NCBI GenBank assembly: GCA_009602725.1
Contig: WELB01000091.1
Coordinates: 405,257 to 462,290, forward strand
Source of the DNA: Spirogloea muscicola
Taxonomy: Eukaryota > Streptophyta > Zygnematophyceae > Spirogloeales > Spirogloeaceae
DNA length: 57,034 bases
Direction: 5' to 3'
Shown here piece by piece: positions 4,365-47,723 of this stretch. Below the pieces are notes generated by a model. That model was not told where the DNA came from. It did no database searches and saw only the letters and a list, made by a program, of their open reading frames with translations. A program made the position numbers and the translations under genes. Numbering within the stretch: position 1 is the stretch's first letter; each line of letters begins with the position of its first letter.

Positions 4365-4655
4365 GGTCGCTCTGATGTGGCGCCCTGTGATGGCGTGCGT
4401 CTGAAGCCGGCGCTTGCCACTGGCGCTGGCGCACGCCCCCCGAGCACTGCAGCGCGGCGCCGCCGCCGACGCCGCCGCCGCCGGTGCTCCTGCTCCTTCT
4501 ATGAGCGTCGCCCTGAAGCAGAGGTAAGAGGCAAGACGAGGCTTCGTTCAGAGGAGCTGGCGAAGACGAGTTCCACCCTTGAGGGCAAGCCACAACGGTG
4601 ACGGCGGCAGCGGCGGCGGCAGCGCGGCGGCGGCGGCGGCGGCGGCGGGTGGCAG

Positions 4656-4745
4656 GGGACGAGCGCGGAGCAGGACACGCGGTTCTCCAACAAGCAGGCC
4701 AAGCTGATCCGCACCATGAAGTTCCCACCGGAGCTGGAGGAAGTG
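4656..4745 (+). CDS. Isolated exon of a PWI-domain splicing factor (SRRM1/SRm160-like), fragment
   Basis: After a cag acceptor the frame reads GTSAEQDTRFSNKQAKL, then IRTMKFPPELEEV. This is a near-exact match to the start of SRRM1-type proteins, directly before their PWI domain, which binds nucleic acid in pre-mRNA splicing. The expected first exon (Met plus a few residues ending in FFR) and the rest of the PWI domain (VDMxKV...KPWI) were not found within several hundred bases on either side; past a possible GT at 4746 the frame soon stops. It lies just upstream of the DUF1997 gene on the other strand and before the exostosin gene. It could be a duplicated or stranded exon, or the start of a gene whose remainder is missing. 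The identity of the exon is firm; its being part of a working gene is not. Confidence 0.55.
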
Positions 4746-13140: not shown

Positions 13141-13685
<545 letters not shown>

Positions 13686-13704
13686 NNNNNNNNNNNNNNN
13701 NNNN
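13686..13704. other. Assembly gap (19 N)
   Basis: Nineteen Ns directly follow the CT run, so the true repeat length is unknown. Confidence 0.99.
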
Positions 13705-14069
13705 GCCGCCGCTGCCGCCGCAGCGAGGGCAGGCGGACGAGGGCGGCGGCGAGCTCGCGCGCGAGCTCGGCGAGCTCCACCGGCTGCTGTCTCGGCAGGT
13801 CGGCGACCTCCCTCCTCAGACGATCAGGCGGACAGATCTTACATATGTCACGCATTCTTGTTAGCTTCACTGACATCTCTAGCTTTAGTTTCCGAAAGCT
13901 GAAGGATCGATAGGCCATGCTTTCACAGTTTGTATTCGTACTGTATTCCAAATTTTAATCAAGCTCATACCCTCTTGTTCCACACGTTCTGTTACTGTTG
14001 AGCTCATCTTAGGACACCTGCATTGTAACCGTACTTACATAATTCACTCTAAGCATTTGGGAAATTGTA
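13705..14069. other. Gene-poor stretch before the membrane propeller gene
   Basis: A short GC-rich exon-like piece sits at 13705-13798 (GELARELGELHRLLSRQ, then a possible GT donor). It may be the first exon of the following plus-strand gene, since it reads into a coiled-coil-like stretch, but no start codon is visible before the gap. Confidence 0.35.
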
Positions 14070-17000
14070 GTGAGTCGCGATGCCAGCCGCAGCCCCATCT
14101 CGCTCACACTGCCGCCGCACGGACCCGCATTGTTGCTCGCGCAGCGGCGCGCGCTCGCCGCGGTCGTGGAGCTGGAGGCCCAAGTGGAGCGGCAGGCCCG
14201 CCGGATCTCAGACCTCCGCGACGTCGCTGCCCACGTCGATGTCGATGGCTATGACCGAAGCTTGCGGCTGCCGGAGGAGGAGGAGGACGAGGAGGAGGAC
14301 GAGGAGGAGGAGGAGGGAGACGAGGGCGAGGAGGAGGGAGGTGGGGAGGACGGGCGCCGGCGACGGCAGCGCGGCCGTCGCAGCCGGGCCGCCACCTTGG
14401 CGGCACTGCGGCGCGACGCGGCCGAGTGGGAGGAGCGCTTCGAGCTCCTGGCGGCGATGCGCGTCGACGGCGGCACGGAGGTTTTGGCGCTGCTCGTGCT
14501 GCCCAACAAAGGGCCCGGCGCCGGCAGCAACGGGCGCCACGTGGTGGTCGCCGACGACCGGGGCCGGCTGCACGTCTTCGACGCTGCCCTTGACGGCGAT
14601 GGCGGCAGCAGCGGCAGCAGCAACCGCGCCGCGCTGCTCGAGGCGCCGCTGCCGGCGCCGGCGACCGCGCTGCTCGCCTTCCATGTCCGCAATGAGTGCG
14701 TGCTCGTGACGGGCCATGCCGACGGCTCCGCACGCGTCTACCTCCTCCATGACACGCTCCCTGCCAAGACGGCGACGGGCCGTGCTGCCGCTGCCGCTCC
14801 TCAGCTGGCCATCGAGCTCCTGCACGTGCTCGTTGATGCTCCGGCGGCCAACGAGGTAAGACAGCCCGCTCCTTCGGACGTTCTGGCCTACAGTACTGTC
14901 TGCATGCACAGCCTGTGCCAGACATAGAAGTATTACTGTGATTGTATTTCAAAGATGGACAGTGAGCATGCAGCGTCATGTCCTCAACATCTCTTGCCAG
15001 ATTCACCACACATGCACCTTCTTTTTCAATGTCAATCCTCGGTTAATTCTCACGAGTACTTCGAGTCAAACACCCATCGTTTCCTGCTCTGCCTCCCCTC
15101 CTGCGTCTCTTAGACCTGCTCTGCTACCTTGACCTTTCCCATCCTCTTCTCCCATCTCCAGCACTGTGTACAACACCGCTTTCTAAACCCTAAACCTTAA
15201 GCCCTAACCTTCTAAACCCCTAAATCCTAAACCTTAAATCCTAAACCTTTCCGCAGGCGCCCCTGCCGCCGGTGGCCGGCCTGGAGCTCTTCCGTGCCGG
15301 CCACGCACGGTTCATCCTCGTGCTCGACGGCGGCGGCCGGATGCTCGCCTTCCGCGGCAATGGCACGCTGCACGGCGCTGCCTCGGCACCTGCGCGCCCG
15401 CTTGCTTTTTTGCGGGGGCCCCCGACGCACCGAGCCTCTGCGACGCGCCCCGTCTTCCTCACTGGTGCTGAACTGAACTTCAGATGCTGAGGGTCACTTA
15501 GCCGTACTTTTCCTAGATGAGGTCTTCTGTTGCTGAAGCTGGGGCCTGCGGCGCCGGAGCCGCGATTGCAGAGGCCGGCGCGGGCTCGCTGGACTTGCGC
15601 GACATGGTAATGAAGGGCACTGGCTGCCAGGGCCTTGGCGGCTCGCGAGTCGCCGCGTATGTGTTCGACGTTGCCGGCCGCTCCAAGGCCTACGGCCTCA
15701 CGCATGGTGAGCTCGCAAATGCAGTCGTGCCAGGATGTCATCAGTCTCTGTGCTTGGAGTGCCAGAATATTTCCAGCATGAGGCACTTAGCGAGCTTCGC
15801 ATCTCCATGGCAACCGCTGTAGCATATCTAGTCGGACTTGCAGTGTGCTGGCGCCCGTGACAGTTGGGCTGCGCTGTTGCCGGCGTGATAGATGGCGAGC
15901 TCGTGTACGTTTCGCTCAGCGGCGACACGCAGCACTTTGACTGCCGGGTACGCGAGCGACTGGACGTGGGCCTCACCGGGCCCGGGCCCGCGGTTTCGCT
16001 GCAAGGCCTGCGCGGCTACCTGGTCGCGGCCACGCCAGACGTGGTCGCGGTGTATAACACGACAACAGCGACGGCGTCCAGCAAGCCCGAACGGCAACGG
16101 GCTGCTGGTGGCGGCAGCGGCGTCGGCGATGGCGGAGGAGGGGCTGGCAGCCTGCGGTTGCTCTTCAGGGCACGCGCGAGGAGCATCCAAGGTGCGCCTT
16201 TCCCGTGTGGACAGTGGTAATTTTGTGTGTTAGATCTTCACCTTTATGCTTAACTGCCAGCACAGTGTTAGAGTCTTTGGCTTTGGGGTTAGTTTTGAGA
16301 GTGAAGTGGTCTATCATTGATCCATTGTTTGGATTTATGATGTCAGTCAGCTCTGAAGTTAGGGATATCTTCAAAACAGGCTCAGTATGCTGACCCCCGA
16401 GAGCGCGCACGACCTGCTGCAGCTCTTTTTCTCAGAGGCCGTGTGCCGCCAAATTCTCGGCTGGTCATGGTCAGCGACCGCGAGCAGCTGCTGGTTTTGG
16501 CGTTTAGGTAAGGTGCCCAGCTGCTGCCACCGTATGCCGCCTTTGAAAGTGGGTATGATGTTCTGGCTGGAACTATTGGTTGCGGCTGAGTCACCCGTGG
16601 CACTCAGTGGCACAAAGCCTGGTATGCGGTGGGGCAGCGGCGGCCATGTGGCGATCTTCCGGTCCACCCTGCCAGTGCTCCGATCACCGGAGTTCACCGC
16701 CAAGTTCTGGAGCAGCCCGCTGCTCGTGGCGGTCCTTGTCCTGGTTGGCGCGTGGCAGATTTTCGGGTACAGCCAAAACCCTTAACTAAACTCCGCATCC
16801 TACCGGCAAGGCCGCTTGACCCATTTGCTGGCTTTGCAGTCAAGAAGCATGGCTTTTGCAGGCCTTCCGTTGTCAAGAGTTTTCAAGAGTACGCGTCGCA
16901 ATAGAATGTCAATAGTGGTGTGCCCTTGCCGTGCTTTGAATCTCAGGCCTTAAGATATGCCAACGTACGCGCTTTTGATCAGATGTGCCTGGTCCGCCTG

Positions 17001-17292
17001 CAGCCAGAAGAGGGCGGACGGCGCTGCCGGCAGCCCGGACGCCGATGCCGCTGACGGCGACCTCTCGCCCCCCATGCTGAGGGGCGGGCGGGACGGCTCG
17101 GCGCCCGCATCCTCCTTTGGCCACTTTGACCAGCTCCGCAGCCTTAGCGGCTCCCCCTCGTTCCGCGCCCCCGCCTCCGACGCAGGTATCGGCGGCAGGC
17201 CGTACGCTGTGGCTCACGGCGACGGCGATGGGCGCGACGCCCTCCGGATGGGCTATCCTGCGTCGAGGCTGTCGCGAGCAACACCAGCCTAG
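14070..17292 (+). CDS. Predicted single-pass membrane protein with beta-propeller-like lumenal part, function unknown
   Basis: Seven exons join: about 14070-14855, 15257-15470, 15535-15706, 15892-16191, 16438-16507, 16638-16766 and 17004-17292. The first exon has an alpha-helical stretch (LAAVVELEAQVERQARRISD), a long Glu/Asp acidic run and propeller-like blades (VVVADDRGRLHVFDAAL; VLVTGHADGSARVYLL). Later blades read HARFILVLDGGGRMLAFRG, GSRVAAYVFDVAGRSKAYGL, DGELVYVSLSGDTQHFDCRV and RLVMVSDREQLLVLAF. Exon 6 gives RSTLPVLRSPEFTAKFW then a hydrophobic segment (SSPLLVAVLVLVGAWQIFG), and the last exon a polar Ser/Gly/Asp-rich tail. This suggests a lumenal or extracellular WD/quinoprotein-like propeller, one transmembrane helix and a short cytosolic tail. 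I recall plant proteins with the same plan but cannot name a function. In-phase joins (THDGELVYV, SIQGRVPP, AFSGGHVAIF) support most introns. The start is uncertain and may lie upstream, and the 15470/15535 join is the weakest. Confidence 0.72.
15183..15250 (+). repeat. Telomere-like CCCTAAA tract at the end of intron 1 of the membrane propeller gene
   Basis: It reads ctaaaccctaaaccttaag and continues with ccctaacc, taaacccctaaatcc and similar units up to the cag acceptor at 15256. The C-rich strand is in the sense direction. Confidence 0.8.
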
Positions 17293-17654
17293 CACCTTGG
17301 CGCCACTACCCTGCTCATCGACGCCAACCATACCAATGATCACAAACAAATGTGTGCCACCGAATGATAACCAATCATTCTGTCTTATGGTTGTTATAGA
17401 CGTCACGCACTGTGCCAAGCATGCGGTCGCTGAGGGCCTCATGGCTCTGTGATTAAGCTCCAATCGAGGTCTTCTTCTGTTAGGAGCCTGGAGGGAAGGC
17501 CCCCTGGAAGCGGCCAGCCCATGCGTGAGAGCTTCTGAAGGCAGGAAAGCCTGCTTGAGGTGGCCAGCCCACATAGGAAAACTATATTAGCCAAGACGAA
17601 TCTCAGCAGCTCATAAATCGTTTACTGGTGGAGCAGATTGTCATTGACGTGACA
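17293..17654. other. Gene-free stretch left of the giant inverted repeat
   Basis: No coding exon. Two ggccagccca motifs near 17510-17575 may be remnants of the dispersed repeat family described at 50-53 kb. Confidence 0.4.
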
Positions 17655-17995
17655 ATTTAGCAAAAACTGGCAATACACGAACACACAAATATGAGTTGGT
17701 GGCCCCTGACATAAGATTACTCCGAGTCAGCAGCCGAAAGTCGGAGTGATTCGCAGCTTGAAAAGAGGCACCCCGACGAGACCCAGAAGCAGCTGTAGCG
17801 CAGCTTGCCTGCAAGTGAAGAAAGGGTGTCATGCGCATGGGCGTCCATGCGAGATAGAGTCGATTGACTGATATAGAAACAAAAGCTGACGTATGCAAGC
17901 CATGTAATACTCAAACCGAAACAAGAAAGTGGTTGCGCTGGCCAGGCTGACAAGAAGACAGTCCGTCAGGAGACCAACGTCACCAATCGTTCATC

Positions 17996-19054
17996 TCACG
18001 CAATGTTAACAAGGAAAAATGTGAGGCCCAAATCTGAACCTGTAACTGTTTTGTTAGGAACTTTGGTTCCTAACAAAACATCATAGGTGTCTGCTTTTGT
18101 GATCATGCAAACAACAGACAATGACGTCTTCTTTGAAGGTATATCAGCATATAGGGTAATGGACAGAGGTTTCCTGGTCACCCCTATGATGCTATTGGTA
18201 CCACCGGCTGCAGTCTTGATTTTCATGTCGCTATGGACAATATCTCCAGCCTGCAGATTTAACTTGCCAATCATGCCGCGACCCAGGAGTACCGGTTGGG
18301 CACCTGTGTCAATGAGCACAGAAGGTGGAGTTGTACCTTCCACAGTCAGAATGCCATTGGTGTTGTCGAGGAAAGTGGCCGAAGAGAATCTCTTCTGCCT
18401 CTCCACTGCTGATCTGCATGGAACAGAGCGAGCACCAAACAGAGCCACAATTGGCTTAGTAGATGTCATGGTTGGAACAGCTGCAACTGGAACCGTATGA
18501 GAGTTATCAGTACCAGGACTAGTCTGTAGCATGGCACTCAATCTCTCCTTAGTCCAACTCAAGTCATCGAAGCTTAGCACAGGTGTTCTGTGCAGCTTCG
18601 TCAGAAGTATATCCTGGGACAACTGACAATCAGGAAGAGCCACAGCATCTGAAGCTACTGTAGCTATAGGCAGACGTGGCTCATGAGTCAGTGTAACGTC
18701 CTTAACCCTGAAGCTAGCGGGATAGCGTGCATTCCCTGCACGTGCTGTCTGTTGCAAGTCAGTCTCGTTCCTCTTGAGGGAATTCCTGCTGACAACAGTT
18801 GGTTCAGGAGCAGTGGCAGCAACGACAGCCAGGTGTGAGTATTCATACTCGTGTGAAAGCCCAGCGAGGTCTCCATCAACATCGTCCTCATTCGTCTGAG
18901 CCACTGCGGCTGCAGCCAACTTAGCTCGAGTCTTAGCCTCGGCCTCATAAATAGCTAATTTCTGTGTCAACTGTGCAACATCTCGTTCCAACCTATTCAC
19001 GTCAGATTTGTCAGCACGCACAGAATAATCCTTGGAAGACACCTGGCCACTCAA
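17996..19054 (-). CDS. Retroelement aspartic protease-containing frame (left copy)
   Basis: Mirror copy of the frame at 23890-24948. It has a helical N-terminal segment (VNRLERDVAQLTQKLAIYEA), a low-complexity middle and a retropepsin-like domain with VLIDTGAQPVLLG (catalytic DTG) and a YDVLLGTK block. It ends without entering a reverse transcriptase. The frame differs from that of the upstream zinc-knuckle frame and overlaps it by a few bases, so a frameshift is needed to make a Gag-Pro fusion. Confidence 0.8.
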   Translation of the reverse strand: MSGQVSSKDYSVRADKSDVNRLERDVAQLTQKLAIYEAEAKTRAKLAAAAVAQTNEDDVDGDLAGLSHEYEYSHLAVVAATAPEPTVVSRNSLKRNETDLQQTARAGNARYPASFRVKDVTLTHEPRLPIATVASDAVALPDCQLSQDILLTKLHRTPVLSFDDLSWTKERLSAMLQTSPGTDNSHTVPVAAVPTMTSTKPIVALFGARSVPCRSAVERQKRFSSATFLDNTNGILTVEGTTPPSVLIDTGAQPVLLGRGMIGKLNLQAGDIVHSDMKIKTAAGGTNSIIGVTRKPLSITLYADIPSKKTSLSVVCMITKADTYDVLLGTKVPNKTVTGSDLGLTFFLVNIA

Positions 19055-19500
19055 ACTCGTAGCAGCTTGTCAGGGTTCTTCTTCCAACATTGACTTTCTA
19101 CATGACCCACTCTGCCACAAAAAGCACAAGTAGCTCCTGTGGTCTGGTGCAATGCAGTACAATTCCGCTTGATATGACCGGTCTTACCGGTAATGGCAGG
19201 ACGCGGTTGATACTGTTTAGGACCATGACTTACTGCTTGAGGCATGTCAGTAATTGCAACATGAGCTTTGGTAATACCTGAAGAGAATTTCTTGACAGGT
19301 GTGTCTTTGTCTTCCTTCCTTTCCTTGTCGAAAGCTGAGGCTCCTGTGAAGCGATCATCCAACCTTTTCAAAGCAAAATCAGCAGACTCCTTCTCAAGCA
19401 TGACCTGAAACACGTCTGCAAGGTCAAAATGAGGCTTGTGGGATTGCTTCGCTTGCATCAGCAAGAAGTCTAGAACATGGTACAAGGCTTTTCCCAACAC
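19051..19500 (-). CDS. Retroelement nucleocapsid-like frame with CCHC zinc knuckle (left copy)
   Basis: Mirror copy of 23444-23893. CAFCGRVGHVESQC fits the CX2CX4HX4C knuckle that binds RNA in Gag. Just before it, KTGHIKRNC looks like a second knuckle that lacks its first two cysteines. Confidence 0.8.
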   Translation of the reverse strand: MLGKALYHVLDFLLMQAKQSHKPHFDLADVFQVMLEKESADFALKRLDDRFTGASAFDKERKEDKDTPVKKFSSGITKAHVAITDMPQAVSHGPKQYQPRPAITGKTGHIKRNCTALHQTTGATCAFCGRVGHVESQCWKKNPDKLLRV

Positions 19501-19596
19501 AACACAAAGAAATTGGTTAGCTAGATCCTGCGAACTGATGCTTGTTCGGGATTTTCTATAAGCTTGGTGTACCTATGGTAACAAGCTGTCACGGTT

Positions 19597-20193
19597 TCAT
19601 TTTCTAGACGACCTGAACATGGACCTGAACAACTCTTGCTTATACTGCATGTTATTTTCAGGAAACTGTTTGGTCATACGTTCTATCATCTTCTCAACAG
19701 GATCCTCAATTAATTTAGGACCTGCTGCAATCTCGGCTGGTGTAGCAGACACGCATAGAGGTGTTCTAAGGTTCAACACTTCTTGTTTAGACTTTCTGTA
19801 AACATCCCCAGCAGCACCAGTAAAATATTTAGCAAATAAAGTCATCTTCTGGTCTCTTTTAAACACAAAACCCTGTACATCCAACTCACAGAGTTCTGCA
19901 ACAAAATTATTCCTGACCTCTTCCAAAGACGACCCCTCATGTGTGCCATCAAATATCGGACGGGTACCTGAAGCCATGTGTGTCCTTCGAGTGCGGAAGA
20001 GTCTGGCTGTCGGTACTACCGGCTGAGGAAGATCTCCAGTTGTTTGAGCTTCTGCAGCAGTAGAAGATGCAGGTGGAACAAGCGCAGGTCGATCAATACC
20101 AGACAAATCTGCGCTATCTGACTCGTCCAGTTTGACGAGTTTGCCTGACCGCAATCTCATACAATGTTGAGTCAACAAAGAGGATTCGGCCAA
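19597..20193 (-). CDS. Retroelement Gag capsid-like frame (left copy)
   Basis: Mirror copy of 22751-23347. It contains a segment of retrotransposon-Gag type (LFAKYFTGAAGDVYRKSKQE) and ends in a basic stretch. The stop is probably caused by a frameshift (see the right copy). Confidence 0.7.
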   Translation of the reverse strand: MAESSLLTQHCMRLRSGKLVKLDESDSADLSGIDRPALVPPASSTAAEAQTTGDLPQPVVPTARLFRTRRTHMASGTRPIFDGTHEGSSLEEVRNNFVAELCELDVQGFVFKRDQKMTLFAKYFTGAAGDVYRKSKQEVLNLRTPLCVSATPAEIAAGPKLIEDPVEKMIERMTKQFPENNMQYKQELFRSMFRSSRK

Positions 20194-20307
20194 CGGCGAG
20201 AATAGATCTGAATTATAAGTTACAGAAGCAAGAACTCGAGTCTAGCAAAATGAGTCGGACTCCACTCGGCAATCAACGAGGAATCAAACAGACTCGGCTA
20301 GATTAAG

Positions 20308-20441
20308 TAACCCGGCTTGTGTGACTAATACTTCGGACCACGGCTTTTGTGACCAGTGTTCAAATCACGGCTTTTGTAACCAAATGTGCGAACCACGGCT
20401 TTTGTAACCAAAGGTGCGAACCGCGGCTTTTGTAACCCGGT
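20308..20441 (-). repeat. 28-bp tandem repeats in the element leader (left arm)
   Basis: Three full 28-bp units of the type cacggcttttgtaaccaaa plus tgtgcgaac, a partial fourth and a diverged fifth unit lie in the non-coding leader. The same array is mirrored at 22503-22636. Confidence 0.8.
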
Positions 20442-20689
20442 GTAGATATGCAAGCATGCGAGATGCAAGAGCACTGAGTCTAGCAACTGATGCAACAATA
20501 TACTCGACCACAATGTCAGTACCGAGCAATACACGGCAGACTCAATGACATCAACTATCAGGACTTGAGAGACAGACAGACGATGGCAGCGCTGATGCAA
20601 GGCTGCTCACCGCGAGTCTTCCAAGACTTTTCGCAGTCGTACGCGGGTCCAGGCTAAGCTCCACAAGCTGCCGTCTGCCGTATGCTCTG

Positions 20690-20965
20690 CGCACTGTGCT
20701 CTTCTGGGCACAGGCACGGACGCAGGCGCGGGGCCGGCTGCAGTATGCTCTACGTGCTAGGCTCTCTGGGCGCAGGCGCAGGCGCAGGCGCGGGTGCGCA
20801 GGCGTGGGCACGAGGGTGAAGATTGCCGAGCGGACTGCCCGGCTCGGACCGCTCGCTCCGGCTTGGGCCAGGCGCTGCGGTTGCTGCTGGCTCCGGCTGG
20901 GCCAGGCGGCAGATTCGCTGCTGGCACCGACTGGGCCAGGCGAAGAAGAAGGGCTCGCCCATTGA
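20690..20965. repeat. GC-rich minisatellite-like segment in the element leader (left arm)
   Basis: Hexamer-like gcaggc units (20765-20810) are followed by roughly 35-bp units of the type gggccaggcgg-cag-ttgctgctggc-ccgac. It is mirrored in the right arm at about 21979-22254. Confidence 0.6.
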
Positions 20966-21458
20966 GGATAGGGGCTGGAAAAGCCAGCCCAGAAAAGAAT
21001 GAACAAAGTACGAGAAGGGGAAGCGCTAAGAAAACAAAGCACACAAAGAAAGAAAGCAGCTACAAACCACTCAGTAACCCCAGCCAGGCGGTATAATCGC
21101 TGCTGGCACCGACTTGGGTCGGCACTAACAGAAAAGATGCTAGCGCTGCCTGATAGGTCAGAAGCGGCCGTGGCTACGCTGGTTGGCTAAGCTGCTTGGC
21201 CGGCCCGTCATGGGCCAACCACCGGGGGTCGAGGTTGTCGTAGTCTTCCAGCTCACCGCTGACGAGGTTAAGCATGCCGGTTCTTCCACGGGGACAGAAG
21301 CTTCCACAGGATGATCGAGCATGCATGGCGCTGAACCGCGTGGGCCATGACAAGTGTGTAGGATGCTCGCAGACCCTTAGACGCTCCAAGAAGAGAAGCT
21401 CGGCAGACGGGTGTTCAGATAGTCCGGCCTCGTCCTGGACTGTGTCATGATATCTACG

Positions 21459-21485
21459 GGCATCCCGGGTCATATGAATATCATA
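21459..21485. other. Spacer between the two arms of the giant inverted repeat
   Basis: Twenty-seven bases (ggcatcccgggtcatatgaa then tatcata) separate the arms. They are not self-complementary as a whole, so the palindrome is not seamless. Confidence 0.85.
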
Positions 21486-22502
21486 CGTAGATATCATGAC
21501 ACAGTCCAGGACGAGGCCGGACTATCTGAACACAAGTCTGCCGAGCTTCTCTTCTTGGAGCGTCTAAGGGTCTGCGAGCATCCTACACACTTGTCATGGC
21601 CCACGCGATTCAGCGCCATGCATGCTCGATCATCCTGTGGAAGCTTCTGTCCCCGTGGAAGAACCGGCATGCTTAACCTCGTCAGCGGTGAGCTGGAAGA
21701 CTACGACAACCTCGACCCCCGGTGGTTGGCCCATGACGGGCCGGCCAAGCAGCTTAGCCAACCAGCGTAGCCACGGCCGCTTCTGACCTATCAGGCAGCG
21801 CTAGCATCTTTTCTGTTAGTGCCGACCCAAGTCGGTGCCAGCAGCGATTATACCGCCTGGCTGGGGTTACTGAGTGGTTTGTAGCTGCTTTCTTTCTTTG
21901 TGTGCTTTGTTTTCTTAGCGCTTCCCCTTCTCGTACTTTGTTCATTCTTTTCTGGGCTGGCTTTTCCAGCCCCTATCCTCAATGGGCGAGCCCTTCTTCT
22001 TCGCCTGGCCCAGTCGGTGCCAGCAGCGAATCTGCCGCCTGGCCCAGCCGGAGCCAGCAGCAACCGCAGCGCCTGGCCCAAGCCGGAGCGAGCGGTCCGA
22101 GCCGGGCAGTCCGCTCGGCAATCTTCACCCTCGTGCCCACGCCTGCGCACCCGCGCCTGCGCCTGCGCCTGCGCCCAGAGAGCCTAGCACGTAGAGCATA
22201 CTGCAGCCGGCCCCGCGCCTGCGTCCGTGCCTGTGCCCAGAAGAGCACAGTGCGCAGAGCATACGGCAGACGGCAGCTTGTGGAGCTTAGCCTGGACCCG
22301 CGTACGACTGCGAAAAGTCTTGGAAGACTCGCGGTGAGCAGCCTTGCATCAGCGCTGCCATCGTCTGTCTGTCTCTCAAGTCCTGATAGTTGATGTCATT
22401 GAGTCTGCCGTGTATTGCTCGGTACTGACATTGTGGTCGAGTATATTGTTGCATCAGTTGCTAGACTCAGTGCTCTTGCATCTCGCATGCTTGCATATCT
22501 AC

Positions 22503-22636
22503 ACCGGGTTACAAAAGCCGCGGTTCGCACCTTTGGTTACAAAAGCCGTGGTTCGCACATTTGGTTACAAAAGCCGTGATTTGAACACTGGTCACAAAAG
22601 CCGTGGTCCGAAGTATTAGTCACACAAGCCGGGTTA
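22503..22636 (+). repeat. 28-bp tandem repeats in the element leader (right arm)
   Basis: Mirror of 20308-20441: repeated gttacaaaagccg-ggttcgcac units in the leader, about 120 bp upstream of the Gag frame. Confidence 0.8.
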
Positions 22637-22750
22637 CTTAATCTAGCCGAGTCTGTTTGATTCCTCGTTGATTGCCGAGTGGAGTCCGACTCATTTTGCT
22701 AGACTCGAGTTCTTGCTTCTGTAACTTATAATTCAGATCTATTCTCGCCG

Positions 22751-23347
22751 TTGGCCGAATCCTCTTTGTTGACTCAACATTGTATGAGATTGCGGTCAGG
22801 CAAACTCGTCAAACTGGACGAGTCAGATAGCGCAGATTTGTCTGGTATTGATCGACCTGCGCTTGTTCCACCTGCATCTTCTACTGCTGCAGAAGCTCAA
22901 ACAACTGGAGATCTTCCTCAGCCGGTAGTACCGACAGCCAGACTCTTCCGCACTCGAAGGACACACATGGCTTCAGGTACCCGTCCGATATTTGATGGCA
23001 CACATGAGGGGTCGTCTTTGGAAGAGGTCAGGAATAATTTTGTTGCAGAACTCTGTGAGTTGGATGTACAGGGTTTTGTGTTTAAAAGAGACCAGAAGAT
23101 GACTTTATTTGCTAAATATTTTACTGGTGCTGCTGGGGATGTTTACAGAAAGTCTAAACAAGAAGTGTTGAACCTTAGAACACCTCTATGCGTGTCTGCT
23201 ACACCAGCCGAGATTGCAGCAGGTCCTAAATTAATTGAGGATCCTGTTGAGAAGATGATAGAACGTATGACCAAACAGTTTCCTGAAAATAACATGCAGT
23301 ATAAGCAAGAGTTGTTCAGGTCCATGTTCAGGTCGTCTAGAAAATGA
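22751..23347 (+). CDS. Retroelement Gag capsid-like frame (right copy), probably frameshifted at its 3' end
   Basis: The protein has an acidic Ser-rich N-terminus, then GTRPIFDGTHEGSSLEEVRN and the segment ELCELDVQGFVF with LFAKYFTGAAGDVYRKS, typical of retrotransposon Gag. Near 23335 a different frame continues the Gag-like reading (LENETVTACYHRY, KLIENPEQASVRR) until about 23420. The original frame then resumes in the zinc-knuckle frame. This indicates two compensating small indels, so the present copy is broken. It reads away from the palindrome centre. Confidence 0.7.
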   Translation: MAESSLLTQHCMRLRSGKLVKLDESDSADLSGIDRPALVPPASSTAAEAQTTGDLPQPVVPTARLFRTRRTHMASGTRPIFDGTHEGSSLEEVRNNFVAELCELDVQGFVFKRDQKMTLFAKYFTGAAGDVYRKSKQEVLNLRTPLCVSATPAEIAAGPKLIEDPVEKMIERMTKQFPENNMQYKQELFRSMFRSSRK

Positions 23348-23443
23348 AACCGTGACAGCTTGTTACCATAGGTACACCAAGCTTATAGAAAATCCCGAAC
23401 AAGCATCAGTTCGCAGGATCTAGCTAACCAATTTCTTTGTGTT

Positions 23444-23893
23444 GTGTTGGGAAAAGCCTTGTACCATGTTCTAGACTTCTTGCTGATGCAAGCGAAGCAA
23501 TCCCACAAGCCTCATTTTGACCTTGCAGACGTGTTTCAGGTCATGCTTGAGAAGGAGTCTGCTGATTTTGCTTTGAAAAGGTTGGATGATCGCTTCACAG
23601 GAGCCTCAGCTTTCGACAAGGAAAGGAAGGAAGACAAAGACACACCTGTCAAGAAATTCTCTTCAGGTATTACCAAAGCTCATGTTGCAATTACTGACAT
23701 GCCTCAAGCAGTAAGTCATGGTCCTAAACAGTATCAACCGCGTCCTGCCATTACCGGTAAGACCGGTCATATCAAGCGGAATTGTACTGCATTGCACCAG
23801 ACCACAGGAGCTACTTGTGCTTTTTGTGGCAGAGTGGGTCATGTAGAAAGTCAATGTTGGAAGAAGAACCCTGACAAGCTGCTACGAGTTTGA
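23444..23893 (+). CDS. Retroelement nucleocapsid-like frame with CCHC zinc knuckle (right copy)
   Basis: It is in the same frame as the Gag frame upstream but separated from it by stops. The N-terminal half continues Gag (FDLADVFQVMLEKESADFAL). The C-terminal part has one complete CCHC knuckle (CAFCGRVGHVESQC) and one degenerate one. It overlaps the protease frame by about 4 bases. Confidence 0.8.
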   Translation: MLGKALYHVLDFLLMQAKQSHKPHFDLADVFQVMLEKESADFALKRLDDRFTGASAFDKERKEDKDTPVKKFSSGITKAHVAITDMPQAVSHGPKQYQPRPAITGKTGHIKRNCTALHQTTGATCAFCGRVGHVESQCWKKNPDKLLRV

Positions 23894-24948
23894 GTGGCCA
23901 GGTGTCTTCCAAGGATTATTCTGTGCGTGCTGACAAATCTGACGTGAATAGGTTGGAACGAGATGTTGCACAGTTGACACAGAAATTAGCTATTTATGAG
24001 GCCGAGGCTAAGACTCGAGCTAAGTTGGCTGCAGCCGCAGTGGCTCAGACGAATGAGGACGATGTTGATGGAGACCTCGCTGGGCTTTCACACGAGTATG
24101 AATACTCACACCTGGCTGTCGTTGCTGCCACTGCTCCTGAACCAACTGTTGTCAGCAGGAATTCCCTCAAGAGGAACGAGACTGACTTGCAACAGACAGC
24201 ACGTGCAGGGAATGCACGCTATCCCGCTAGCTTCAGGGTTAAGGACGTTACACTGACTCATGAGCCACGTCTGCCTATAGCTACAGTAGCTTCAGATGCT
24301 GTGGCTCTTCCTGATTGTCAGTTGTCCCAGGATATACTTCTGACGAAGCTGCACAGAACACCTGTGCTAAGCTTCGATGACTTGAGTTGGACTAAGGAGA
24401 GATTGAGTGCCATGCTACAGACTAGTCCTGGTACTGATAACTCTCATACGGTTCCAGTTGCAGCTGTTCCAACCATGACATCTACTAAGCCAATTGTGGC
24501 TCTGTTTGGTGCTCGCTCTGTTCCATGCAGATCAGCAGTGGAGAGGCAGAAGAGATTCTCTTCGGCCACTTTCCTCGACAACACCAATGGCATTCTGACT
24601 GTGGAAGGTACAACTCCACCTTCTGTGCTCATTGACACAGGTGCCCAACCGGTACTCCTGGGTCGCGGCATGATTGGCAAGTTAAATCTGCAGGCTGGAG
24701 ATATTGTCCATAGCGACATGAAAATCAAGACTGCAGCCGGTGGTACCAATAGCATCATAGGGGTGACCAGGAAACCTCTGTCCATTACCCTATATGCTGA
24801 TATACCTTCAAAGAAGACGTCATTGTCTGTTGTTTGCATGATCACAAAAGCAGACACCTATGATGTTTTGTTAGGAACCAAAGTTCCTAACAAAACAGTT
24901 ACAGGTTCAGATTTGGGCCTCACATTTTTCCTTGTTAACATTGCGTGA
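23890..24948 (+). CDS. Retroelement aspartic protease-containing frame (right copy)
   Basis: The frame is about 350 residues. It holds a heptad-like segment near the start, a poorly conserved linker, and a retropepsin-like domain near residues 235-330 with the DTG catalytic triad in VLIDTGAQPVLLG and a second conserved strand YDVLLG. It stops shortly after the protease; neither this frame nor another in the arm continues into reverse transcriptase. Expression as a Gag-Pro fusion would need a frameshift at the overlap with the upstream frame. Confidence 0.8.
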   Translation: MSGQVSSKDYSVRADKSDVNRLERDVAQLTQKLAIYEAEAKTRAKLAAAAVAQTNEDDVDGDLAGLSHEYEYSHLAVVAATAPEPTVVSRNSLKRNETDLQQTARAGNARYPASFRVKDVTLTHEPRLPIATVASDAVALPDCQLSQDILLTKLHRTPVLSFDDLSWTKERLSAMLQTSPGTDNSHTVPVAAVPTMTSTKPIVALFGARSVPCRSAVERQKRFSSATFLDNTNGILTVEGTTPPSVLIDTGAQPVLLGRGMIGKLNLQAGDIVHSDMKIKTAAGGTNSIIGVTRKPLSITLYADIPSKKTSLSVVCMITKADTYDVLLGTKVPNKTVTGSDLGLTFFLVNIA

Positions 24949-25289
24949 GATGAACGATTGGTGACGTTGGTCTCCTGACGGACTGTCTTCTTGTCAGCCT
25001 GGCCAGCGCAACCACTTTCTTGTTTCGGTTTGAGTATTACATGGCTTGCATACGTCAGCTTTTGTTTCTATATCAGTCAATCGACTCTATCTCGCATGGA
25101 CGCCCATGCGCATGACACCCTTTCTTCACTTGCAGGCAAGCTGCGCTACAGCTGCTTCTGGGTCTCGTCGGGGTGCCTCTTTTCAAGCTGCGAATCACTC
25201 CGACTTTCGGCTGCTGACTCGGAGTAATCTTATGTCAGGGGCCACCAACTCATATTTGTGTGTTCGTGTATTGCCAGTTTTTGCTAAAT

Positions 25290-25290
25290 N
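25290..25290. other. Single N at the junction of the inverted repeat and the monooxygenase exon
   Basis: One ambiguous base separates the retroelement arm from mid-exon coding sequence. See findings. Confidence 0.95.
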
Positions 25291-26868
25291 CGGCGGCGGC
25301 GGCGGCCGCACGACGGTGCGGGCGCGCCTGCTGGTCGGCGCCGACGGCCTGCGCTCGGCTGTGCGCCGGCAGCTGGCCGGCGACAAGCCGCGCGACCTGC
25401 GCTGCCTCAACTGGAACGCCATCGTCGACAACCCCGGCTGCCGGTGTGGCGGGGCCCCAACTCTTATCCCCCCTTTCGCTTTCGCCGCCGCTGTTCAAAT
25501 CTCAGCAGCCGCATCCTCTTCCAGCGGCTGCACTCTCTCCTCTGTCCCCTGGTGGCTCAAGAGCTTGTCAATTGCCAATTGTTATTCGGGCATCAGTTAG
25601 CGACCTCTATGTGTTAACTTGTGGTCACTGAGTGGGTCAGCTTAAGCAGCAGGTGATGTACATCTGCCAATTGTACTTGGCCACCCAGGCCCTCCATCAT
25701 TCCATGCCCATTGTCAAAGAGGCTGCGCAGGAAGGCCGGACGCCAGATACGTTATGGAATGTACTGTAATGGGCTCCGCCGCAGGCTATCATGTGAGCCT
25801 GTAGCTCGGCTGTGCGCAGTGTCATCGACGGCCACGGCCGAGACGAGATCGTGGTGAAGCAGGACGCCGGCAAGGCGCTGCGGCACCTCCTCGTGGACGC
25901 GGGCGAGGGCAAGTCCTTCTGGCAGCTGATGAAGTACGACCGCGATGGCGCCGCCGGCGCTGAGTTGGGCGACGCCTGGGGCGGCTATGGAGCGCCGGGG
26001 GCTCGCGAGCGCGCGCTGGCGCAGATCGCAGGCCTCAATGGGTGGGACGACGTGCGGCAGGCCATCGAGGCCACCGCCGATGCCCAGATCTTTGAGCGCC
26101 GCCTTGCGGACCGGCTGCCGCTGCCGTCGTGGAGCAACGCCCTCGGCAACGTCGTGCTCCTCGGCGACGGTATGTGCCGTTGTCATCAAATCTAGCCAGG
26201 ACTTATAGACATCAATGTGGGTTTTATTTAACGTCGGTTGTGTACTTAGCAGCTGACAGAATTGCTTCGCTGACCCAAAGCGCCGGGATGCGGTGGCCAG
26301 CGGCGCACGCCATGTTCCCGGGCCCTGGCGAAGGAGCGCGCACGGCGTTCGAGGACGCGCACCAGCTCTGCCTGGCGCTGGCACCCCTCTCCGGCGGCCC
26401 TTGGGGCCTGCCAGACGTCCGAGACGCCGTGTCGAGGCACGTATCGGCACGCTTGCTGCCAGATCCGCCTGTCGTGTCGCAATGGACATGGCTATGTAGA
26501 AGCCCCTGACACACCTGCAGTAAGGATAGCCTCAGGATGTAAAAGGCTTATTATTTACCTTAAAATGGTAGTCATAAGATAATTTTCATTACATGAAGCA
26601 CAAGAGGTCCTTACCTTCTCAGCAGCCATAGATATCAGTCAGTCTTCTTGATTGCAGGTACGAGGCAGCTCGCGTCTCGCGGTGCAACCGTGTGCTGGAG
26701 TATGCCGCCGAGGACTCTGGTCTGCCTGAGGAACTCGTCGTGCCGCCGGCTGTCCGGGCGCTTACCCCCGGGCAGCGCCAGGACCGCAGTATGCAGTTCA
26801 GTACATGGATGGCCAAGTACCCTGACGCCATCAGCGGTGACCCATCATCGCAATATTGGAGTACCTAA
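25291..26868 (+). CDS. FAD-dependent monooxygenase (PHBH/zeaxanthin epoxidase-like fold), 5' part missing
   Basis: Four exons join: 25291-25443, 25820-26169, 26301-26436 and 26658-26868 (stop TAA). The first gives VRARLLVGADGLRSAVRRQL, the DG motif (GADGxxSxVR) that contacts both FAD and NAD(P)H. The joined LLGDAAHAMFPGPGEGARTA with FEDAHQL is the second FAD motif (GDAAHxMxPxxGxGxNxAxEDA), here with R in place of the usual N. The N-terminal GXGXXG dinucleotide-binding motif is missing because the gene begins abruptly after the N at 25290. The family hydroxylates or epoxidises aromatic compounds, carotenoids or ubiquinone precursors; the substrate cannot be told. Intron 3 appears to use a GC donor (tcgag|gcacgt): only that site gives the phase needed for VSRYEAARVSRCNRVLEY. 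The C-terminal tail (TWMAKYPDAISGDPSS) is not one I recognise. Confidence 0.88.
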
Positions 26869-27769
26869 GCCTAGATCTAAGATCCAAAGGCTTAAGCTCA
26901 TTTACCTCCAGTGTTGAGCACCTCATCGATGCAACAATACTGGCTGCCTGTTGCATACTGCTGTTTGCAGTCTTGCCACACAGGTTTGCCGGTGATTGTA
27001 CAGTTCATATTGTACATTGTGATATGTTTGTTGTACGGTTATGTTCATCTGAGGTGCACCACAGATGTGAAAAGTGCAGCTTTAGTCGGGAAAGGCCAGG
27101 GGTCATTGATTGTTGCCAATTCCTCTTCACTCTCAATTGTCTGTACCTCGACACCATACAGTGTATTCTGCCATGGACCTGCTCTGTAGTGTGCGACCTG
27201 CAAACCTGCATGATAGTCACTGGCCAAGAGATTTTCTCCATGCAACTTGCACAGTTGACCTGTGCTTGCTTGCAGCGTACGACCTGCCTAACTGGCACAA
27301 CAAGATTGCCACAGCAGTAGCTTCATGCAATCTGCTAAGTTACACAATGCAAAAGAAGGGTTGCATCGAAGTCACCAATACCATGGCCTACTCAGAGAGA
27401 AGTATAGCACTGTGTTGACAATGTATATCACTGTACAGCAAAGACCAGAAGCTGACTGCAGTCATGCACCGCAGTCAAGGCGATATCAACAAAGTGGTAA
27501 ACCCAGTGAAAATACCATCACGATGCTGCATTGCTGTACAGCCAAGAGCTGACAGTAGTCACATACTGCAGCTGAGGCATTTGGTGCATGTCTTGAATGC
27601 ATACGAGACGAGAGCAACCCTCAACCCAGCTCTAAGAGCAACCCTAAACCCACCTCTCTGGGTCAAGGACGTAAAGAGGTCTTTGCAGTATACACCAGAT
27701 CTTCACCTAAGTGCCATACCTTACATCTGATCATCTGAGTGCTTAATCCTGCCATGACCAATCCTAAAC
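26869..27769. other. Intergenic between convergent genes
   Basis: AT-richer sequence without recognisable exons. A short decayed telomere-like stretch (gcaaccctaaacccacc) lies near 27640. Confidence 0.5.
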
Positions 27770-30700
27770 CTATGTTCTAGATCTCAAGGGTGCAGAGGAG
27801 CCGCACATGTAGGAGAGGCCCGCCGAGGACCCGAGCCAGAACGTCCACGGCCTGCCGAAGTCGTTCAGGCCCGCGAGCTCCAGCCCAAGCTCTGAGCTCT
27901 CTGAAGCGACTGCCAATAGGGATTCTCAATGGTATATCAGAAACTGCCAGAAGGGGCTTACAACCCCTAGAATCGCCTATGGCCCAGACGGGTTCAAGAG
28001 ATTTGGTGTCTAAGGTGTGATGTATATCAGAAATGCGGAAGACGCTACATTGGGGACACGCAAGTATGAACACAATGCAGGTCTACCAAGCAGGGTCCAC
28101 AAAATGTAACATGTGATGGAAGGACTGGAGGCGCAAGGACTATGGAGGTTAGGGGACGTTGGGTGACGCTTGAGCATTTGTCGAAGAGACTGCTCTTAGT
28201 GGGGCTTCTACCTGGAAGGGAGGGAGAGCAGACTGAGGAGACCGGCGCCGGGAAGCCCCGCACGTTCCTCAGCAGCTTGCCAGAGGTGGCACTCCAGATC
28301 CGGACCACAGAGTCCTCGCCACCTTACAAGACATGTCAAGGTTTATCGCAGGTGTAAGGCTGAGGTCAGACATGGGTTTTGGGTCTACTCACAGCATATA
28401 AGTTCAGGAGCAATGGAGGAGCAAACCCAAGAAGCAATGGAGGAGCAAACCCAAGAAGCACTCCTTGCTGCAGGAGGGAAGGCCAGTCGCTTCACCTGAA
28501 GCAAGGAGGGTCTCTGTTTGGTCGAGCTCAAGGTGCAAGAAGGAGTGCGAATTGACGTGGCCATCATAGCTGAGGACCGGCCGCTCGCTCCACCTCCTGT
28601 CCCATAGCAACAACTGCTCGAGCGAAGCAGCGGAGACGGTATAGATGTGTGGTCAGACATGAATACCAGAATATGGATTTACCTGTTATATTTCATTGTT
28701 GATCAGGTCAAAGGCTAAGCAAAAGTGACAGCCTAGTATTCCAGTAAAACCGATACTGCAATTTGAAGTTGGAGCATGCAGCTCTTTGCAGTAATTCTGC
28801 TGGCAGAGGAAGGAGAGACGACTGCTCACAGATCCGTCCATGGAGCTGCTGACCAGGTAACTGTCGTCTGACCGCAGAGCCCTCAAGCTGCCATGAACGC
28901 TAACAGACACTGATCAGCTTGTCCACATCTCCTAAAGCAGCCACGCCAAAGTATGATAGCAACATGCAAGACCGAAACGAGTGGAGGTATTTAGGTGCTG
29001 TGTTAGCTGTACCTGCAAACTGCCGATGGGGCCCTCATAATGGCCGTGTGACTGCAGTACATGCGATCACTCTGGGGCACGCCACATACCGCGCCACACT
29101 TACAACCAAAGTTGGACATCACACCAGCAGGCGAGCAAACACAGGTTGCTATCAGAGTTGGTCAACATCAAAGTAAAGAATATATTATCCTCAATGCAAA
29201 CATGAGGAAGCGACGGCCTTCTGGCAAGGCACTCGCCGCATCTATTTGTGGGCTTCTGAAGTGCTTGGGCAGCTAAAGACAGTTGCCTTAGAATTGTTGC
29301 AGCAAGGCTGAGGAGTCCTTCGAAGCATGCAGCAATGGGGACAATCTTAAGCTAGCAGCTGCAGAGAGAAACTACTCCATTACTGATTCCATATAATGTT
29401 CGTGATAATGCCCAGGTCCTTACTCTAGCCATGGCAAAATGAGGACTTGGGATGTTAAGCCTGAAGATAATAGTGATGTTATGACGTACCATCACAACCG
29501 TCTTATGCCTGCCTCGAGACCCTCTCTGCAGCCTCCGCACTTTGACGCCCGCTGGCCGCCCAGCTTGAGAGCGCGGGGGCGGCAGTCGCAAATCGATGGT
29601 GGATATCACGCCATTGCGGAAGCCGTTGAGTACGACGTTGCCCTGTGCAGGCCATCCTAGGCACCCCGGCGACAAGCGTGAGTCAGGTCAGGCATGACTG
29701 AGTCCACAGCAAGTCTTGCAACGAGCAAACTACTCTCCTAGACGTCGACTAGTTGCTGCTACTATACACATAACCTGCTTCTTTAAATCCAAAGAGTGTG
29801 CTAGTCAAGGTGGTAGATCTTGACAAGGTGATTAAGTAATCTGCTGTCAAAGGTAACATAAAGGCTACTGTTTGCTTTGTCTTGATCAGCACAAGCCCTT
29901 CATGCAGCTCGCTTTTGCAGCCTGGTGCGAGCATGGACAGCGCAGGCGAGGCCCAGGGCGGACTTACGACAAGGTCGAACTGCTGAGCCAGCACCGCGCT
30001 CGCGCTCGCGCACAGCGCACGGGTCCCCTTGGTGGCCAGATCCACCAGCTGCGCACCACCCGACGTTCCTGCGACACCATCATTGCAAAAGGCACGAGAA
30101 ACCTCAACCTCAACCGCAGAGCTCAACAAGGAGAACATCTCAGAATAGTGAGGCTTTAAGTCTTAGTCAGTTTTGGAGTGTTAAGAGTTAACACAGGGAA
30201 TTGAACAATTAGTACCCAAGCTGGCAGCCCGGGTACCACCCGGCTGGACCTCGCACGTCCAGATGCTGCTGCGAGAGGTGGCCACGACACTCCGGCGGCT
30301 CACGAGGCTGCGCTGCTCCAGGCTGGGGTGCAGAACCCCCGGCGGCCGCACCTCCAGCCGGAACAGCTGCAGCGCTGCCGGCTCCTCGCCCTCGCCCAGC
30401 GTCGTCACGCTGCGCCAAGCGGCGGGGGAAGGGGGGAGGGGGGGGGGCAGATGATCTCAGGTTCAACAAGTTACCAGTATTGGCAAGCCAAGCCATCATT
30501 CAGGCTGGGACTCGAATTATGGGGGGAGGGGTGAGACAAGGGGTAAGTCCAATCAAGTAAGTCTTTAGTGTCAAATCAATCAGGGCTTCAATGCACGTAC
30601 TGCTATTGCCTTATGTAGGATCTGTCTTGGTGGCTGACAATCTAGGATGCAAGAGGAAGATCAGGGGACACAACCACATCTTCCCTTGCACTTGCTTGAT

Positions 30701-32375
30701 CATGGCAACTCACACAGCCTGAGGTGCATCTAGATACTACTCCCAGAAGATAACACCTAATTTGGGCCCTGTCTCCATGTTTTCTACATTACCCATAAAC
30801 CAAAATTTACTAGTAAGCCAACTTGGGTTTTGGGGTTTAGGTTTTAGGTGTTACAACAGCAGGCTGACAGATGGGCTCAGCAGCTGCGGCAAAGCCAACG
30901 AGGCAAAGCACTCACAGCAGCTCGTTGCCTCCGTCGTCGCTGTCGCCACCCAGCGCGCTAGCATTGCGCAGGGAGCTCGGCCGCGCAGCCAGGTACTGGT
31001 CCCACCCGGAGTTGAGGAGTGGCTCCTGCGCTCTTGCTGCCGCTGCGGAGCCCTCACTCTCGTCACGTAGAGCCTTGTTATCGGTAGCGGTGGCGGCGGA
31101 CCTCAGCCTCCTGCGCACGCCGTCTAAACCCCGGCTGCATTCCGGCGGCCATTTGCTGGGCCGCAGCACCTCCCGCTGCTCCCACACCCCCGCCTCGTTG
31201 CATGGGAACCACTGCCTGCAGCAGTTGGCACAAGGAATTGATTTAAGATCAAGCAATGAGGAGCGCAAAGCAGAGCTTGACTCCGTTGCCATATACCTGG
31301 CCGGCCAGCCAAGCTGCCAGTGAAGGCCGGATGCATAAGGATGCAGGCCTTCTAAGGTCCAGGATCATGGGACTACATTAAGGCCCATAAAGTTAGAAGA
31401 ATAGATAAACATGATCCTCTTATGGTTTGTGTGCTTGTACACAAGCTTTTGCTTCGCAAATAGTGTCTAGCAATCATCTCAGACAATAGAGTTTCTTGAG
31501 AGCTCATGAATTGTCCAACGGGATAGGTTCCAGAATATCAGCATTCAGGCCCAAATGCCTAATCAAGGCTTAAGGGTTCGAGAGGGTGCAGCCGGGTGTG
31601 GCCAGGGAGAGCCGACCGCAGGAGGCCGTTGGTGCCGCAGCCGACGAGCGCAGGCAGCAGCTGGGCGCCCTCGTCGGACTGGCAGGCGATGCGAGCCCAC
31701 ACCAGCGCCACGTCGCCGGCGGCGCCCTGCCCGCGCTCGAACCACCAGACCTGCCAGTTCTCGCGCCGGCGCCTTCACGTATTGACAATCCATATTGTAA
31801 ACCAGCAAGACGAGGAACTCCAGCATAAGAAAACGGAATGTATTGATAGAGTAACAACTATTGATTGGTTGGTTCTGCTGACCATCCATGGCCTCCTTGC
31901 AGTGGAGGACTTCAAGTTGACCAAAAAACTTCTTACCTCAGGGCTCGAAGCCTGGGTCTCCAGAACGGCTCGCCGGAACCCATTGCCGGAACGGCCTCTG
32001 GCTTCGCGGTTTTGCAGCAGCCGCAGCAGCGGCAGCGGCGGCGCAGCAGCGCTGTCGTGCCCTGGCGGCGGCGCGGCGGCGTCGCCGCCGTCATCCTCCC
32101 GGCCGCCGATAGCCTGCCGGCAGCAGTGGTGTTTAAGCTTTTGGGTTTTGGGTTTAGTGGCTGAGGTGACTCGCAGCCACCGGTGACAGCGGCGGCGGCA
32201 CAGCGGCAGCAAGCGCCACAACCATCACCTCGCCGTCACCGCCGCTGTTACTGACGACGCCACCACTGGCGTTCCTGCCGCCGCCTCCGCCACTGCCGCG
32301 GGGCAGCCGGAAGTAGCGGTTGCGGGCTTCGTCGAAGTAGAACCCCGGAAGCTCCAGTCGTCCGGCAGCGGCCAT
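27770..32375 (-). CDS. DCAF4-like WD40 protein (predicted CUL4-DDB1 substrate receptor)
   Basis: Exon-sized pieces on the minus strand follow DCAF4 order. The N-terminus MAAAGRLELPGFYFDEARNR with YFRLP (about 32375-32170) is the DCAF4 hallmark. Then come LLRLLQNREARG (about 32130-31938, clear gtaag donor), WWFERGQGAAGDVALVWARI (31790-31580), QWFPCNEAGVW (about 31225) and FRLEVRPPG...SSIWTCEVQ (30410-30235). WD40 blades follow: GTSGGAQLVDLATKGTRALC (30070-29968), GNVVLNGFRNGVISTIDLR (29660-29530), DDSYLVSSSMDGSV (28900-28825), LLWDRRWSERPVLSYDGHVN (28610-28500; WDRR fits the DDB1-binding WDxR box), GGEDSVVRIWSATSGKLL (28330-28240) and a last exon to 27770 (WTFWLGSSAGLSYMCG). Such proteins recruit substrates for ubiquitylation by CRL4 in the nucleus. 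Several exon borders are approximate, and the 31790-31580 exon is the least like known homologues. The start is the Met just before the PGFY motif. Confidence 0.82.
28408..28455. repeat. 24-bp tandem duplication in a DCAF4-like gene intron
   Basis: The unit gcaatggaggagcaaaccca plus agaa is present twice in a row. Confidence 0.85.
30824..30850 (-). repeat. Telomere-like tract in a DCAF4-like gene intron
   Basis: The plus strand reads gggttttggggtttaggttt. The C-rich strand is in the sense direction of the minus-strand gene. Confidence 0.65.
32141..32158 (-). repeat. Telomere-like tract just upstream of a 3' splice site in the DCAF4-like gene
   Basis: The plus strand reads ttgggttttgggtttag. 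In sense it is C-rich and ends roughly 20 bases before the cag acceptor. Confidence 0.55.
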
Positions 32376-33017
32376 GGCCGACGGAGCCGACGCTGTCGCC
32401 GCCGCCGCCACTGCTTCTGTAACCGCCACCTTTTGTGGGGATGACACAGGCTAACCAACACGGGCAATTCTGGCACTAACGAGGCCAAGTGGAAGTCTTC
32501 CAGTGTCACTGGAAGACCACTGTGGCCAGTATCCACGGCCTTTCAATGGGACTTCACACTGAGACATGGAGGCCCTGCTGACTTGACTGAGACACTCCAC
32601 CTTTCAAAGTGCATAGCTAAGCTTCACATGTCACTGCACATTACAAGCACGCAGTGCATGCGCTGGGCATGTGCGTTATTACTGATATGACCACCATAGA
32701 AGCTGCCATCATTGGAGCCAACCCGAGCTGTTGCAAGGTGGGAGCGTGGGGCCACCTTAGAGGCATGACTGTCAGACCGCCCAGAACAGCTGGCTCCTCG
32801 GCCCTCTCACCTTAGCAGTCCGGTCAGAACAGCAGCTAAAGCTCAAGTTCGCTTCAAACGCAGCCCCTCACTTCCGCCGCAAATAATGGCAGCCATCATC
32901 TGAACTCTTTGCAAAAGAATAATAGGGGCCACAAGGAGCATACAGTACATGCGGTGCTCCTGGAGCTTCAGGTGGGCCGCCAAGAGGACTAAACTCCACA
33001 CTCTAATTGGGAGTATA
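32376..33017. other. Intergenic: DCAF4-like promoter side and RPN2 3' side
   Basis: This lies between two minus-strand genes. A short frame continues upstream of the DCAF4-like Met (32447) but has no family support. No other feature was seen. Confidence 0.45.
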
Positions 33018-47672: not shown

Positions 47673-47723
47673 CTGCAATGGTGGATGGGGGGAGAGGGGG
47701 TTACAAAGTGCAGGGTAATAAAT

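Follow-up and report, generated by a model that had tools for sequence, protein, structure and literature searches.

Two described classes of inverted duplication come closest to the structure analysed here, a near-perfect 7.6-kb palindrome that contains a retroelement copy and lies in a 57,034-nt stretch of the Spirogloea muscicola genome (assembly GCA_009602725.1, contig WELB01000091.1; the whole stretch, C91:405257-462290, is referred to as the window). In yeast with intact MRE11 and SAE2, foldback inversions have large predicted loops, with a median of 36 nt (PMC7467729), and in yeast deficient in Sae2 or Mre11 inverted duplication is driven by a break close to naturally occurring inverted repeats (PMC10622511). 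The palindrome in the window resembles these yeast products in having a central short inverted repeat, here with a 27-nt spacer, and identical arms that include flanking sequence past the transposon end; it differs from them in that its outer right end is an N and the existence of its full extent is uncertain. Palindromic artefacts of assembly or of foldback reads form the second class, and the palindrome resembles these in having outer arms that are perfectly identical, a gap mark at its end, and a continuation that does not match; it differs from them at its centre, a natural inverted repeat whose arms are told apart by private differences. A further system, maize Mu killer, is a partial inverted transposon duplication that acts as a silencer (PMC3440606). 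The palindrome is likewise an inverted duplication of a partial transposon that could yield a long hairpin RNA, but here the existence of the full arms is uncertain and the likeness is one of DNA sequence alone. The comparisons reported below indicate that the full 7.6-kb extent is most likely not a real feature of the organism, and that a short, hairpin-like core most likely is.

The assembled palindrome comprises a left arm (17655-21458, plus strand) and a right arm (21486-25289, minus strand) in inverted orientation about an unpaired 27-bp spacer (21459-21485), the region of the predicted hairpin loop. Paired coordinates sum to 42944, and 3801 of 3804 arm positions match when position i is paired with position 42944-i, so that the near-perfect 7.6-kb palindrome described in an earlier note on this sequence is exact in its coordinates. 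The identical open-reading-frame partners that the note ascribed to the arms are found for six of six pairs of at least 100 residues lying wholly inside the arms; the two frames that extend across the spacer (21174-21497 and 21447-21770) differ from each other. Within 15000-30000 this palindrome is the sole inverted repeat of at least 40 nt reported with a 20-base seed, and the whole window contains no other inverted repeat of at least 100 bp at the settings of the local-repeat scan. The results confirm that the palindrome is present in the assembled sequence, far beyond chance. The mismatches between the arms are at 21336, 21409, and 21410 only, all of them at most 123 bp from the spacer, and the outer 3,681 bp of the arms contain no differences. 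Counted as two events, the three differences would both fall in the inner 123 bp with a probability of about 0.001 if evenly spread.

The hairpin core at the centre (21411-21533) comprises a 48-bp stem, the spacer, and a second 48-bp stem; as single-stranded DNA, this 123-nt core has a predicted energy of -63 kcal/mol, vs. -14.8 +/- 2.35 kcal/mol for 200 shuffles. In a search of the genome (153 Mb in 471 contigs; hereafter, C-numbers denote contigs or scaffolds and L-numbers fetched loci), the stem matched at four loci, on C91, C290, C17, and C240. The locus on C290 (L034) contains a palindrome (L034:4067-4785) centred on a nearly identical stem, with arms of ~345 bp, seven differences between the arms, a 28-nt spacer, and flanks unlike those in the window; because its arms are diverged, this second palindrome is real. 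The spacers of the two palindromes are alignable, with modest similarity (24 of 2000 shuffles score equally well), and the loop is more diverged than the stem. C240 carries a single flank of the C290 type, and C17 carries a single flank of the window type. The stem forms the end of a dispersed repeat (21279-21458) that has further copies on C17, C336, and C179, and comparison with these copies identifies changes present in the right arm only: a T opposite 21336, where four of four other copies have C, and TT opposite 21409-21410, where the left arm, C17, and C336 have GG and the C179 copies align poorly. The private changes of the right arm show that real DNA derived from this locus extends past the spacer for at least 123 bp. 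We conclude from these comparisons that an inverted-repeat core with arms of at least 123 bp is real DNA, the minimal inverted repeat so backed being 21336-21608. The earlier suggestion that the spacer marks a physical centre is borne out for the core, given the C290 palindrome on a related stem, and is not borne out for the full arms.

Comparison of the two arms with each other and with copies elsewhere indicates a single copying event. The arms have in common a 172-bp flank, a truncation of the retroelement at 21226, a nested insert of ~147 bp, and every junction. They also share an inserted A near 21299, a C at 21307, and a G at 21356, at each of which the four other copies of the dispersed repeat (C17, C336, and two on C179) differ. 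The genome search listed 114 matches to the arm (best 40 of 3622 candidates scored). Among these, no match elsewhere that exceeds 1 kb has more than 81% identity with the arm, shorter ones reach 97%, and none represents a second locus with the whole arm. Because both arms are the same composite with identical junctions, one segment was copied in inverted orientation.

The reading that we favour, and hold to be probable if not strongly so, is that the locus has a real inverted repeat, each arm of which is at least 123 bp long, and that the assembly ran through it and back along its own complement. According to this reading, the locus would hold the 48-bp stem, 27-bp loop, and 48-bp stem within arms of at least 123 bp; the assembler, extending or gap-filling the left contig, would pass through this repeat; the assembly would then retrace the left arm as its reverse complement; and extension would halt at a one-N join, where a contig that does not continue the arm would start. 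Back-copying of this kind would accord with the general behaviour of assemblers. The outer part of the right arm would most likely be absent from the genome.

The sequence at and beyond the outer end of the right arm bears directly on this reading. Past the inner 123 bp, the right arm is indistinguishable from a reversed copy of the left arm. Its outer end abuts a lone N (25290), and the outer end of the left arm has no N and is seamless with the left flank. The duplicate ends at the gap mark, with no matching continuation: the first bases of the right flank (25291-25752, plus strand) are a CGG repeat that lies within an open frame resembling C160:49659-49200, a region of C160 of which a stretch scores as FAD_binding_3 within a 270-residue open frame. 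C160 aligns from base 25291, with 78-79% identity, and the C160 open frame continues upstream of that point; the place where similarity begins is not sharply defined, because the first ~25 bases after the N are CGG-rich and the alignment of a second paralogue, on C53, begins only at 25313. The only other lone N of the window, at 47724, is followed by a stretch of ~3 kb (47725-50757) reported as 100% identical to C103:495996-499058. In a direct comparison with C103, the final 529 bases compared were identical up to 50757, beside a GCC repeat, and the C103 side of that junction contains no N. From this identity, 47725-50757 is likely an assembly duplication, or else a very recent segmental copy. 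To the left of N 47724, window positions 44021-47718 resemble C160 at 87-91%, and in the two stretches compared (25291-25752 and 44021-47718) the similarity to C160 begins 1 base after N 25290 and stops 5 bases before N 47724. The two stretches match C160 in the same order and perhaps represent a duplicated or homeologous block bounded by the two lone Ns; this block, of which 25753-44020 lies outside the C160 comparison, may be misplaced in the scaffold. The left flank of the palindrome (13705-17654) has no C160 counterpart beside the paralogue, only dispersed-repeat matches near 208 kb (best 40 of 131 candidates scored). Farther left, at 13143-13704, a 543-bp CT simple repeat runs to a run of 19 Ns.

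The outer 3,681 bp are doubtful because they contain no differences, because they end at a lone N, because the sequence after that N starts inside an open frame, and because a second lone N is accompanied by a duplicate. The earlier note had held that an arm ending at a lone N favours an artefact, and the open-frame start and the second suspicious join strengthen that suspicion and tip the balance toward an assembly artefact. If the outer arms are an assembly product, any copy count, palindrome survey, or idea of hairpin-RNA silencing that draws on this locus would be in error, and the proper place of the right flank may be another one.

Several observations weigh against assembly extension. 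The N alone is not decisive, because a graph walk through a true palindrome, ending at its fork, would likewise stop exactly at the arm end. The private changes in the right arm require real DNA for its inner part. The C290 palindrome is diverged, and hence real, with a related core, and L021 contains an inverted pair of the same element family (3145-4908 and 5164-6927; 98.75% identity across 1,764 bp, the two copies being 255 bp apart); because of these two examples, inverted duplications can be said to occur in this genome. Attempts to locate the absent upstream portion of the right-hand gene carry little weight: a search with FAD_binding_3 yielded no C91 match among 24, yet also missed the known fragment at 25291, and a search with the upstream region of the C160 paralogue yielded no C91 match among the 55 listed, many of them low-complexity (best 40 of 199 candidates scored). 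The window and fetched loci, 246,411 bases in all, contain 11 short N runs, of which 10 are lone Ns; only at N 25290 does a local repeat of at least 97% identity end, and the local-repeat scan found none ending at the nine other lone Ns. For the eight lone Ns in the other loci, a genome search with 180-bp flanks from both sides in one joined query returned the own location of all eight and no single-copy perfect duplicate, from a list flooded by one high-copy repeat. That repeat is the flank to the right of 7647 in L029; the left flank in L023 has a 98% copy on C26, and both L023 flanks have an 88% copy on C11. Perfect duplicates adjoin two of two lone Ns in the window, a pattern not shown to be general.

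Of the alternatives, the one that survives best, a real possibility that we nonetheless consider doubtful, is a genuine young foldback inverted duplication. According to this alternative, a break would occur near the hairpin, and the 3' end would fold at the stem, with a 27-nt loop, and prime synthesis along the arm; the arms would be identical as newly copied DNA, the inner differences would be older, stemming from a pre-existing inverted repeat, and the contig would stop at the end of the palindrome since the assembly graph forks there, with the N hiding further sequence. The core is a short inverted repeat with a central loop (48-bp stem, 27-nt spacer, strong predicted hairpin), in agreement both with the large predicted loops of yeast foldback inversions (PMC7467729) and with the inverted duplications that arise in yeast deficient in Sae2 or Mre11 when a break falls close to natural inverted repeats (PMC10622511). 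The three private changes and all junctions common to the arms are as a single copying event predicts, the C290 locus provides a diverged palindrome with a related core, and the left junction is seamless. The total identity outside the core speaks against a foldback, as do the outer right join, where the lone N at 25290 is followed by sequence that begins partway through an open frame, and the duplicate next to the second lone N. A real palindrome would be a recent inverted duplication with a natural hairpin as its seed, and a relative of that hairpin centres an older palindrome on another scaffold; seed, product, and unduplicated relatives could then be compared within one genome.

A more general proposal, which we regard as unlikely, is that a hairpin module of ~122-123 bp (48-27-48) repeatedly nucleates inverted duplication of adjoining DNA in this genome, with the 7.6-kb palindrome as its youngest product. 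The complete module is found at only two of the four stem loci, in the window and on C290, and at each it centres a palindrome. Outside the core, the arms of these two palindromes are unrelated to each other, and the half-module loci, C17 and C240, carry these flanks unduplicated.

Very improbable, in our assessment, is a head-to-head dimer junction of an integrated, hairpin-ended linear DNA element, such as a virus or plasmid, with the retroelement in its subterminal part; the spacer would then be the terminal loop, and the arms would be two replicas of one end. The arm does contain a primase-helicase-like fragment, and L034:3424-6302, adjoining the C290 palindrome, contains a larger primase-helicase-like open reading frame, which matches DUF5906 and DNA primases, together with a below-cut-off match to DNA polymerase B; by these matches, this region looks like what is left of a DNA virus or a similar element. 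C17 and C240 resemble single ends, each with a few loop bases retained, from one side of the loop at one locus and from the other side at the other, and divergence is greater in the loop than in the stem, but these two loci could be decayed repeats, the stem is matched at four loci only, the similarity of the spacers is modest, and no complete element was identified. Still less probable is that the assembly took over an artefact of a long-read library, either a foldback read or a missed adapter. Foldback reads are well known as artefacts (PMC12870357), but this palindrome is centred on a natural hairpin, to which a core at another locus is related, and not on an arbitrary point, and the gap count in the sampled sequence suggests a short-read assembly. 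Weakest of all is the independent head-to-head insertion of two retroelement copies at a single site; head-to-head insertion was one of three options raised in the earlier note, beside a break-induced foldback and an assembly or library foldback. We reject it as scarcely credible on the shared junctions and flank: further copies of the element do exist, and in both arms its reading direction is away from the centre, but two insertions are contradicted by the flank, the truncation, the inserted repeat, and the three private changes that the arms have in common, the listed matches longer than 1 kb are too diverged (at most 81% identical), the natural terminus at 17827 lies on the outer side with a truncation at 21226, and any rescue would need a process that homogenises the flanks too.

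From the outside toward the centre, each arm comprises a flank, a retroelement copy, a primase-helicase-like piece, and the dispersed repeat that ends in the stem. The 172-bp flank past the low end of the element (17655-17826, plus strand in the left arm) is present in both arms and holds a dispersed repeat of ~99 bp. The retroelement copy (17827-21226, minus strand) is truncated and internally deleted: it has a natural terminus, TGTCATGCGC, at 17827, and 21226 is not the other terminus of the family, copies of which go on differently at that point. It contains a Gag fragment with a CCHC zinc knuckle (19051-19500, minus strand; PF00098, E 1e-5) and an open reading frame with an aspartyl-protease-like stretch (17996-19054, minus strand; PF13975, E 2.6e-4, below the Pfam cut-off). 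The nested insert (20936-21082) is a dispersed repeat of ~147 bp with related pieces at 50347-51356, and five family copies (L018, L027, L028, L029, and L030) run from ~20935 to 21083 without it; the family copy on C127 (L019) is ~1 kb longer than the arm between 18042 and 18055. The 56-bp piece (21227-21282, minus strand) resembles the primase-helicase-like open reading frame on C290, with 15 of 16 residues in the aligned stretch and 83% identity over 52 bases. By its domains, 17827-21226 is a retroelement, the zinc knuckle scoring above the Pfam cut-off and the protease below it, and the arm is, to judge from its components, a composite; the earlier designation of the arm as a retroelement therefore applies to this part and not to the arm as a whole.

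Copies in nine other loci (L018, L019, L022, L025, L027, L028, L030, L036, and L037) belong to the same Gypsy-like element family, and some of them (L018 and L019) carry a C5 cytosine methylase. L018 contains, in addition to the methylase, an RNase H-like domain of reverse transcriptases, an integrase zinc domain, and a below-cut-off protease; the stretches scanned in L018 gave no match to the reverse transcriptase domain itself or to the integrase core. The arm copy has the zinc knuckle and the weak protease, and is without the methylase and the RNase H part. The closest described elements are the methyltransferase-bearing Gypsy elements KnitGypsy-Dnmt3 of Klebsormidium nitens, the repeats of which are called DIRS-like and the domains Gypsy-type (PMC5890265); the main text of that paper makes no mention of Chlamydomonas, Volvox, or chlorophyte. 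The family resembles KnitGypsy-Dnmt3 in that a C5 cytosine methylase, accompanied by RNase H and integrase zinc domains, is present in copies other than the arm copy; it differs in having TGTC...GACA ends with 4-bp duplications, and in that the arm copy lacks methylase and RNase H.

The element has inverted ends (TGTC...GACA). Target duplications of 4 bp accompany them at 8 of the 20 fetched loci, six found by script and two (L019 and L027) by reading; at L026 the two end motifs are present but a matching 4-bp duplication is not. No direct repeats are present at the element ends in L019 or L027, and a reading of the ends as long terminal repeats was rejected on this ground and on the inverted ends with 4-bp duplications. 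Ginger transposons have TGTNR ends, with 4-bp duplications in Ginger1 (PMC2836005). The family agrees with Ginger1 in its TGTC(A/G) ends and 4-bp duplications; none of the eight duplications corresponds to the Ginger1 target given in that source, CCGG or CCGT/ACGG, and the RNase H-like domain in L018 is a retroelement enzyme, which Ginger1 elements do not have. The largest span of the family is 7.8 kb, including an N run (L022:187-7986). Diverged inverted repeats involving the high-end part of the family are present in L020, L022, L023, and L029. These inverted pairs were considered as further foldbacks and dropped; the pair in L022 is internal element structure, lying within an element (187-7986, including a run of 505 Ns) that has both ends and a target duplication. 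The copies in L027, L028, and L030 are short derivatives with a common internal deletion junction, in which 18047 or 18046 is joined to ~20245-20272.

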